A DNA stretch of 64,000 bases from Paraphaeosphaeria minitans (taxonomy: Eukaryota; Ascomycota; Dothideomycetes; Pleosporales; Didymosphaeriaceae). A model generated the notes under the pieces. It did no database searches. It saw only the letters and a program-made list of their open reading frames with translations, and was not told the origin of the DNA. The position numbers and the translations under genes were made by a program. The DNA lies in assembly GCA_015832175.1 (NCBI GenBank), contig WJXW01000001.1, positions 4,154,001 through 4,218,000 of the forward strand, read 5' to 3'. Below are positions 60,271 through 63,916 of this stretch, piece after piece; positions within the stretch are counted from its first letter, which is position 1; every line of letters starts with the position of its first letter.

Positions 60271-60389
60271 GGATGGGATGGGATGGGATGAGGTGAGATG
60301 AGATGATGTTGATGTTGATGTTGATGTTGATGTTGATGTTGATGTTGATGTTGATGTTGATGTTGATGTTGATGTTGATGTTGATGTTG
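60271..60389. repeat. GGGAT run followed by a TGATGT hexanucleotide array
   Basis: Four or five GGGAT units at about 60271-60303 are followed by about 14 perfect TGATGT units at 60304-60389. Confidence 0.95.
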
Positions 60390-60620
60390 TTGATGCTGAG
60401 GCGAATATCGGTAATACATTCCTCCGACCCGAGCGGCTTCCTAGCTATCATAGGTACCGCAGCTACCCGAGCGGCTTCCTACCGTAGCTACCCGCGTCAC
60501 GCTTCCTTGTGCTACCTTATCACTGCTGACCTCTCGGCATGGCATTTTCTGTAAAAGCTGTCCGACTACCTACGCTATCGCCATCATCCACACCCATCTG
60601 CCTACGACACCATTCGCCAC

Positions 60621-60665
60621 GCTCTGCTCTGCTCTGCTCTGCTCTGCTCTGCTCTGCTCTGCTCT
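60621..60665. repeat. GCTCT pentanucleotide array
   Basis: About nine perfect GCTCT units, 570 bp upstream of the seven-module gene. Confidence 0.95.
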
Positions 60666-61232
60666 CTCTGATCTTTGCAGCTAATCTGTCATGGTATTAC
60701 AAGTGATGCTTCTTAGAAAAAGTGCTGGCTAATTTGGCAGCGTGATTCGCAGTAAAGCTCTAACTACTCATCCAAGTCTTGTCCCTAGGTCAGGTAGACA
60801 AAGCCCCCGAAGGTAGCATCGTACAGCTTCAAAATCGGTGCTCACTGCTTCAATGTCACTCGGTGTTGCCAACATCTGCTTTACTCTTGCCGAGAACAAG
60901 TCCAGCCTGTGCAGCTGCCTCCTCCGCAGGCACAATGGCAGTCACAATGAGGCCGCCAAAACAAGCATCCCCTGAACCACTCCCTTGTCTTCTTCCACCC
61001 TTTCAACCAACCGGTCCGAAACACACTTACCACTACCAGGTATGCTTCAACCCCGCCGCTTTGTCTCCAGTTCTGACCTTCGCAGCGAATACACCGAGAT
61101 TGACTAGGTTGGCTGATCGTCTCTTTTGCTCTCCTCGCACCCGCTGTACTCTCCTGCATATTGCTCTGGGCCGTCTCGACCGAAGCAAGACGACTTCAGC
61201 TCTCTCGTTTCCCCGAAGTACAAGCTCTGAAC

Positions 61233-63916
61233 ATGTCTAGATTTGCCATCATGCTTTTCACGGCCCTTGCTGTGGCTGGCTTGGGTGTGCTACCTGTTCA
61301 CGCTTGGGATAAGCCTGTCCAGGAGATCGACTTTCTTGGCCCCTGCAACCCGACCGACGAGCAGTGCGAGTTGAAAAAACGTCAAGACGATGAGCATCAG
61401 ACCACCGACGGTGACTGGCACATTGGATGCGATGAACCCCGCCACTGCGGCTACCACCAAGATCACTCGAACAAACGCTCTATCGATCCCGACCCCAACA
61501 CAGCAGCCCGTCCGATTCCGACACGCTCATCTTCTCAGGAGTCCCCAAATCCAGATTGGCTAAACATACCAGACCGGGACGGTATCGATACGCGCTGCAG
61601 CCTTACCAGCATCGAACTCGTCGAGAAGTTCAACGGCCAGCACTGGGTTCACCACTACAAATGCCCACCGGGTACCTCCTGCACTGATATCCTTGGTAGC
61701 GGGGCCTGCAGGGCCGGCCTCTACGAGTTCATCATCCCTGGTCAAAGCTACCTATGGGCTTTCGACTGTCCAGATGCTCTCAACGACCCGAGTACTTGTC
61801 ACTTCTCCGAGACGATGCACTCACTCGGTGCTCCAAAGCCGCAAGAGCCGTACCTGACTGGAACGACGCGTTGCAACCCAAATGGACGAGCCGTTCAGTA
61901 TTTCGACGGCGACGTATGGACGGATGTCTACTCTTGCAAGGCGGAGGCTGCCTGCGTTGAGCACGAAGGCCGCGGTGGCTGCATGGCTGGTGAAAGCCTG
62001 TCCTATCCATTGACCTCCCGCGAATCGAGCTCGTATCGATTACCAATCGCGCATGCTGACCAAACAGGCTCTCTTCCCTACAAAGACCAAGCTACCACGG
62101 GGAGGTACATCCAGTGGCCACCTGTAAGGCGCGGTGCAGAGGATCAGCCACCGACGCGTTGCCATCCCGAGATCGACGGCCGTGTCCAATTGTTCAGCGA
62201 GTGGTACCATAAATGGATCGACTTTCGCGATTGCGATTACCAGAGCGTCTGCCACAATTCGATGGATGAGGCTAAATGCGAAGATGAAGAAGAAATCCAT
62301 GTCCCGTTGGTGGACCTTCGCAACGGCGTAGAGAGTTGGCATCCTATCAAGGCCTCCGACCGTCCACCCAAGCCGGTTCTGCAGGTCCAATACGATGAAG
62401 ATGACTATGTATTGCCGCCAATTCAATCAACGATTGCCCAGAAAGAAGGTCCCGTATACACCAAGTGCGATTCTCTAGATTATACTTCCAAATTCGTTCA
62501 ATATCTCCACCCCACAGCGCAACAGTGGCTCCGATTCTACGTATGCGGGGGGCGTTGCTTCCAATTCCGCGAGTTTGCAGCTTGCGAAGAGTACACCGAC
62601 AAGTTTGTGATCCCGAGCCCACCGAAAGAGAATATCTCAAAGCACGACGCCCCCAAGGATCTGGATTCTCAGTGAGTCCGCCCAGAAGGGGGGGGGAGGG
62701 GGTGGGGTGATTCAGCATGATGACTGTCCTTTTTTATTGCCTTGCAAGACGAGGCCTGGTCGTCATATATATCTTTGCGTTGTTGCATCTATGAGTGAGG
62801 TTCACTGGCTGATTTATATCAGTCTTCTTCGTCGCCAAAAACCCCACAATCCAGTAGCACCCGACTTCCACACAATCGACACTCGCTGCAACCCTTTCGA
62901 TCTCAATGAAGTGCAGCGTTACAACGGAACACATTGGATCCACCATTACCAATGTACCTTTCTCGGATCTTGTATCGATGTTGACGGCCACGGAGCGTGT
63001 CGCCTGCAAGACAATGTCTACGAGTTGCCTTCAGCCAATCGAACCTCAATCAAACAGGGAGAAGGTGAAAATCCGCTGCGAGTCAAGACACGTTGCAACA
63101 AGTCGAATGCGAGCGAGATTCTTGAATGGCAAGGTCATTCTTGGGAGCCGCAAGGGGTTTGTCTTCCGCCGTTCGAATGTTTCGACTTCCACGGCAGCAC
63201 GGGCTTCGCTCTTTGCGTGCAAAACGATGCGCAGTACCAGAGGATGTGGCTTCCCTGGCCTGAGTTGAGCCGCAGTACAAATAGCGGACAGGTTACGCGC
63301 TGCAAGGACCATGGAACAATGGAGCAGTTCAAAGACAACGCTTGGGTTCCGTACAGGAGGTGAGAGAATCCGATAAAGTCACTAGATGGTTCAAATTAAG
63401 ATCGACACGACAATCCCAGCGTCGCATAGTGCAGAATCTTCGCTGACAGCGCCTAGGTGCAACGGAATCTTCACGTGCCAAGGTGTTGAAGGTGGTCCAA
63501 ATGGGGGTTGTGCAGCACCCAGTCTTTACGACATCTTGACCCAGCGGGCCGTTCATAGCTCCGGATATCATGCCAGCCGAGAAGCAGCTCCTCGCCTTCC
63601 CAAGCGTGACAATAACGATGATAGCCTGTTGGAGAACAGCGAAATGCTGACAGAGCAAGGCAAAGTGCGTGCTGATAGCCTGCACCGGCGTTCTCCATCT
63701 ACTGTGCAAGTGCTGATGTCCACCCGCTGACATTTAATCCAGATCTTATTTAGCGAAGGCAAGGACCTTACAGAACAGAGCAATCCTCTTCTTGAAATTC
63801 TCTTCGGCTCCCGGCCGAACCCTGAAGTGGATATTGATCCGTCAAAGCCCCGGGTGAATGTTGACATCCACGATGCCGATGCTCGCGATGAGGACACCGA
63901 TTTTGACACGGAGTAG
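61233..63916 (+). CDS. Secreted protein with seven four-cysteine modules and Kex2-type sites
   Basis: Four exons, 61233-62671, 62823-63359, 63457-63664 and 63743-63916, give 785 residues. All phases fit; intron 1 is 151 nt (GTGAGT..CTGAT..TATCAG). Residues 1-24 form a signal peptide ending near VHA-W. Seven modules share C-x(19-25)-C-x5-C-x8-C, with a Trp exactly six residues before the second Cys in every copy. First cysteines are at C122, C214, C310, C412, C502, C571 and C640, mostly preceded by T-R. Module 4 has x3 instead of x5; modules 6 and 7 have a longer last loop. Module 7 is split by intron 2. Dibasic KR sites at 49-50, 81-82 and 708-709 could be cut by Kex2. The C terminus is acidic. 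No known family is recognised. If intron 1 were not spliced, the first exon would be a separate 480-residue protein. Confidence 0.8.

Follow-up and report, generated by a model that had tools for sequence, protein, structure and literature searches.

A tandem four-cysteine module in a predicted secreted protein of Paraphaeosphaeria minitans and related fungi

Several described systems resemble the protein encoded by PMIN01_01242, a gene on the plus strand (61233..63916) of a 64,000-nucleotide stretch of Paraphaeosphaeria minitans DNA (the window; positions 4,154,001 to 4,218,000 of contig WJXW01000001.1, assembly GCA_015832175.1). P. minitans, also known as Coniothyrium minitans, is a parasite of Sclerotinia and a biocontrol agent against it, which gives practical interest to proteins that shield the mycoparasite wall or grip the prey. 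QID74 of Trichoderma is a wall-associated protein with 13 tandem cysteine-rich repeats of 59 residues which binds the fungus's own chitinase; its repeats are nearly identical copies, each with eight cysteines in 59 residues and a NGKQCVCPKGQVW motif (PMC13170347, in excerpt). LysM proteins of Clonostachys rosea have been tied to hyphal protection (PMC7176902, in excerpt). EHEP carries CBM14 domains with six cysteines spaced C-X15-C-X5-C-X9-C-X12-C-X5-9-C and uses that fold to bind tannins, a non-glycan ligand (PMC10619976, in excerpt). Finally, Kex2-processed repeat proteins combine a signal peptide with at least three repeats and Kex2 sites between them, the repeats being identical or nearly so (PMC6339444, in excerpt).

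Seven four-cysteine modules and their relatives

The original prediction of a seven-fold, four-cysteine repeat was confirmed, and all seven modules lie beyond chance in shuffle tests. The modules occupy positions 61581..61745, 61860..62018, 62145..62315, 62451..62621, 62872..63036, 63079..63264 and 63286..63544, the seventh being split by intron 2. Each is backed by a held-out profile and by relatives; module 5, which is closest to the family consensus, was also modelled. When each module in turn was held out, a profile built on the remaining six gave it 11.6 to 49.1 bits, values reached by 0/2000 full shuffles for any module. When the cysteines were kept fixed, module 3 was reached by 2/2000 shuffles and each of the six others by none; with cysteines and tryptophan fixed, the counts were 18/2000 for module 3, 2/2000 for module 6 and zero for the other five. 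Module 3 is the weakest by itself, and by sequence it has clear counterparts in other species.

As proposed, W-x5-C occurs in all seven modules and C-x5-C-x8-C in modules 1, 2, 3 and 5, while the variants read C-x3-C-x8-C (module 4), C-x5-C-x11-C (module 6) and C-x5-C-x10-C (module 7). These cysteine spacings vary as described, but the claim that only one loop differs does not hold throughout, as the loop from the first cysteine to the tryptophan is also longer in modules 3 and 4. Similarly, the suggested V/I-x-x-F/Y/W core is strict in five of the seven, with module 4 ending in Leu and module 7 starting with Met. The unit is indeed a small repeat, but its size is nearer 55 than the predicted 40 residues because a short strand and a hydrophobic-x-hydrophobic-Pro stretch lie beyond the last cysteine; by eye, this stretch follows the last cysteine and the strand in six of seven modules.

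Relatives were sought with three protein searches, which reach proteins of similar length sharing short exact words. A single-protein query returned P0001-P0006 (6 of 4634 candidates), an N-terminal profile P0007-P0011 (5 of 3348), and a full-length profile 12 of 5281 candidates, the new ones being P0012-P0015. Eight of the 15 proteins carry a species name, and these fall in P. minitans, Karstenula, Kalmusia (named to genus), Didymosphaeria, Paraconiothyrium, Trematosphaeria and Lentithecium, all Massarineae; the eighth, P. sporulosa, was assigned to Massarineae via its genus. As far as these searches reach, the array may be restricted to this suborder, its absence outside being weakly suggested.

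An iterated profile found 78 modules, of which 76 have four cysteines; P0003 and P0005 supply the remaining two, which are truncated. The spacing over the 76 is C-x19-25-C, then a gap of x3, x5 or x8, then a last gap of x8-13; C2-x5-C3 occurs in 63 and C3-x8-C4 in 56. Tryptophan stands six positions ahead of the second cysteine in 73/76, and the three exceptions all occupy an extra slot between 4 and 5 in P0005, P0006 and P0012. P. minitans lacks this slot, and its module 4-5 interval (62622-62871) holds no counterpart of the eighth module, without the usual tryptophan, that these three proteins carry. Among 55 non-redundant modules, the T-R-C start keeps Thr in 52, Arg in 47 and Cys in all 55, and the first core position is V, L or I in 51.

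The order of the modules is old. Of 66 modules in ten proteins, 65 are scored higher by another species' array than by their own, which argues that the array order is older than the split of these families. Close kin inflate the cross-species score for some modules, and the preference still holds for 7/7 in P0012, a protein without a close relative, and for 6/7 in P0013. Sequence comparison therefore places the ordered array as old within Massarineae. The more distant relatives P0012-P0015 bear a further cysteine-rich region of a different kind past the tail, and P0012 has a short exact tandem repeat, NKIVSEE, at about residues 315-347 in the linker ahead of a module.

Predicted fold and searches for a named family

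The model of module 5 agrees with the small beta-rich unit that had been proposed: it has 3+2 antiparallel strands over about 55 residues, with a short strand past the last cysteine. Fold searches with this model in two libraries converged on CBM14/peritrophin-A, a fold of three N-terminal plus two C-terminal antiparallel strands, as the nearest solved folds, at low Z. The predicted fold weakly resembles CBM14/peritrophin-A, with two putative disulfides and not three. By eye, module C2 and C4 would fall at the places of CBM14 C4 and C5, and module C3 at the Phe of the CBM14 GLxF. Fibronectin type I and VWC/TILa, whose cysteine and tryptophan order is similar, were not named among the fold-search matches listed. 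Two disulfides per module are likely, the four cysteines being kept in 76 of 78 modules. The 'long rod' of the original prediction, on the other hand, is not borne out: linkers of 23 to 57 residues separate the module cores, 119 residues precede module 1, and the whole-chain model (mean predicted local distance difference test score 36) is of very low confidence, too low to give the arrangement of modules, although five strands recur in all seven. Carbohydrate binding, raised there as inference, gains slight support from the predicted fold.

The expectation that no named family would match was upheld. Pfam (with the protein, exons, modules and relatives) and NCBIfam (with exons 1 and 2) gave nothing over cut-off, and a scatter of single Pfam rows, among them TILa, COR-A, CBM_35_2, Kelch, WYL_2 and Tudor-knot, was rejected because the best E values, between 0.03 and 0.2, are about the chance expectation over 40 scans. 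In a PDB sequence search the best match was an LDL-receptor-type module (E 0.023 with alignment A2, 0.93 with the larger A6). For CBM14 (PF01607), neither the whole protein nor the modules gave a row at E up to 10, a six-frame genome search found no match, and hhalign against a profile of five CBM14 rows did no better than shuffles. The modules had no Pfam row for CBM19 (PF03427), and hhalign gave a probability of 2.1 with misaligned cysteines, shuffles scoring as high in 4 to 5/100 (local) and 1 to 3/100 (global) cases; the CBM19 profile comprised three near-identical or short rows, the CBM14 profile five or six. CBM1 (PF00734) was listed at E up to 10 for 2/40 modules, the best at 0.038 and below cut-off, and 14 and 32 of 200 shuffles scored as high in hhalign against seven of the genome's own eight copies (L029 left out).

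Two candidate labels were set aside. DUF6087 (PF19565) has a cut-off of 27.1 bits and a 99-position profile, and the best score was 20.6 bits over 16 positions (P0003), the PMIN01_01242 protein reaching 17.9 bits. In several relatives, modules 5 and 6 recurrently give sub-threshold matches to it that span 16 to about 36 positions, with the best E (0.00056) in P0003; this perhaps reflects a shared W-x-G-x-x-W hairpin. DUF4789, an existing label on P0005, gave no Pfam row for that protein at E up to 10. Among titles and abstract openings, no paper on the C. minitans secretome, genome sequence or transcriptome, nor on tandem cysteine-rich secreted proteins of Pleosporales, names this protein; the locus-tag prefix retrieved one unrelated paper. 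The abstract and section 4.8 of an RNA sequencing series on P. minitans and Sclerotinia make no mention of PMIN01_01242 (PMC12428990).

Gene model, dibasic sites and surroundings

Four exons (61233-62671, 62823-63359, 63457-63664 and 63743-63916) join in frame across three GT..AG introns into 785 residues. The public prediction P0001 has 779 residues and is the identical protein with a start six residues downstream. Intron 1 (62672-62822) spans 151 bases, intron 2 (63360-63456) interrupts module 7 and intron 3 (63665-63742) lies inside the C-terminal tail. Proteins of other species traverse the same module order, and this comparison supports the prediction that the exons belong together as one protein. 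In the 47.45 Mb genome (30 contigs), only the exons of PMIN01_01242 itself matched; a single copy was found, which makes a deletion test easy.

The N-terminus is probably a signal peptide (residues 1-24, 61233..61304) and the protein secreted, judging from hydropathy: the 19-residue maximum is 2.31, from residue 4, against only 0.89 past residue 40. In the alignment, an N-terminal region with four cysteines follows (61344..61448), shorter than in most relatives. At 61341-61352 about 30 residues present in P0002-P0009 have no counterpart in P. minitans, and two cysteines are gone with them; this extra stretch forms a cysteine-rich domain, C-x9-C-x13-C-x13-C in P0003. Of five N-glycosylation sequons, three lie within modules 5 and 6 and two in linkers.

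Four dibasic sites are of interest. NKR, followed by S, precedes module 1 (61473..61478), and KR or RR stands at the same place in 9/11 of P0001-P0011, being missing from P0006 and P0011. RR occurs in the module 2-3 linker (62127..62132) and in the module 4-5 linker (62830..62835), a region with KR or RR in P0001-P0005, not P0006. LPKR, followed by D, lies past module 7 (63602..63607), and 9/9 tailed relatives have KR or RR in the 32 residues that follow this module; when 90-residue tails were shuffled, KR or RR occurred somewhere in 16 to 55% of them. The P. minitans dibasic total is not above chance (462/2000 shuffles equal it). The C-terminal tail (63608..63916) has, by sequence and whole-chain model, an amphipathic helical segment and an acidic end. 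Among the tails compared (P. minitans, P0002, P0004-P0006 and P0012-P0015), a segment with a seven-residue L-x-x-E-G-x-x rhythm occurs once in P. minitans and twice in several relatives; each of the two segments is preceded by a dibasic site in P0002, P0006 and P0012.

The gene's neighbours, an alpha/beta hydrolase upstream and an M54-type peptidase downstream, offer no functional lead. The latter (L021 270-1847, minus strand, directly downstream of the window) has a Peptidase_M54 domain over cut-off (E 2.2e-9). Simple-sequence repeats lie within 1 kb upstream of the gene, at 60297-60390 (TTGATG units) and 60618-60666 (CTCTG units).

Possible roles and comparison with known systems

Tentatively, and with some reserve, we favour the view that Massarineae fungi secrete this protein as a multivalent binder of wall or matrix. 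Each module would fold as a 3+2-stranded, CBM14/peritrophin-A-like beta unit with two disulfides, and the modules, arranged as beads on flexible linkers, could jointly bind a polymer, for which chitin or a different wall glycan is the likeliest candidate. The array might coat the fungus's own wall, in the manner proposed for Avr4, LysM or QID74 proteins, or anchor the fungus to other surfaces, and the dibasic sites may allow trimming of the chain by a Kex2-type protease. Several genera carrying the array are not known as mycoparasites, which favours a general wall or surface role. Weighing against this account, the CBM14 likeness comes with low Z and without a Pfam or profile-profile match. 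A fuller version, which we consider possible but doubtful, is that of a new domain family from in or near Massarineae, whose two-disulfide module (T-R-C, V-Q-x-F, G, W-x5-C-x5-C-x8-C) would have either a fold of its own or an altered CBM14-type fold with disulfides lost and moved, and whose seven or eight beads, arrayed in fixed order, would serve to coat fungal walls or to recognise them. Should the resemblance to CBM14 be real, a chitin-binding fold can shed or shift disulfides past the reach of profile searches, which would bear on many unnamed cysteine-rich secreted fungal proteins.

The same fold evidence counts against a surface protein of structural or adhesive function, built on its own small beta fold, in which the CBM14 likeness would be a coincidence of 3+2-strand topology without a specific glycan site: the matches from two libraries agree on one family, and the widely kept tryptophan would suit a binding site, though equally possibly the core. 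We regard this reading as unlikely. Nor do we know of an enzyme partner, which speaks against a cysteine-rich repeat shield that would bind proteins and not glycans, for instance to block enzymes that degrade the wall, an action reported for QID74. The QID74 repeats also differ from the modules in their eight cysteines and NGKQCVCPKGQVW motif, and we would give this shield little credence, even with the precedents of a tandem cysteine-rich wall protein that binds its own chitinase (PMC13170347, in excerpt) and of EHEP, whose CBM14 fold serves tannins (PMC10619976, in excerpt). A precursor cut by a Kex2-type protease into active module or tail peptides seems very improbable. The dibasic sites ahead of module 1, in the module 4-5 linker and past module 7 do recur in relatives, and the paired tail segments of P0002, P0006 and P0012 fit such a scheme, but KR or RR occurs in only 2/6 P. 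minitans inter-module linkers, the total is matched by many shuffles, and the modules are strongly divergent, as against the near-identical repeats of such precursors (PMC6339444, in excerpt).

Compared with known systems, the wall- or matrix-binding array that we favour stands closest in predicted fold to CBM14/peritrophin-A (PF01607; chitotriosidase CBM, tachycitin, Der p 23, EHEP and Avr4), with which the modules share a length of about 50 residues, richness in cysteine, predicted secretion and frequent tandem arrangement, and may share the predicted 3+2 antiparallel strands. CBM14 domains, however, have six cysteines where the modules have four with other spacing, and chitin binding, putative for the modules, is not universal in that family. 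CBM19 is likewise fungal, chitin-linked, short and cysteine-rich, with two places over cut-off in this genome, but its Pfam model leaves the modules unmatched and the profile score is marginally above shuffles with cysteines misaligned. Most CBM1 copies of this genome read C-x5-C-x9-C, near the module C-x5-C-x8-C, whereas the modules have a far longer first loop and lack the GQCGG start and YSQC end. Kex2-processed repeat proteins share the signal-like start, internal repeats and some dibasic sites, but not the divergence of modules or the sparseness of sites between them. None of the seven modules has the CxC or a NGKQCVCPKGQVW-like motif of QID74, but both proteins come from a mycoparasite, are secreted or predicted to be, and consist of tandem cysteine-rich repeats 50-60 residues long. 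The PMIN01_01242 family is not categorically new, and its link to chitin-binding folds is plausible but weak; by sequence it is a new family, unnamed in the libraries searched, within the well-populated kind of secreted tandem cysteine-rich fungal proteins.
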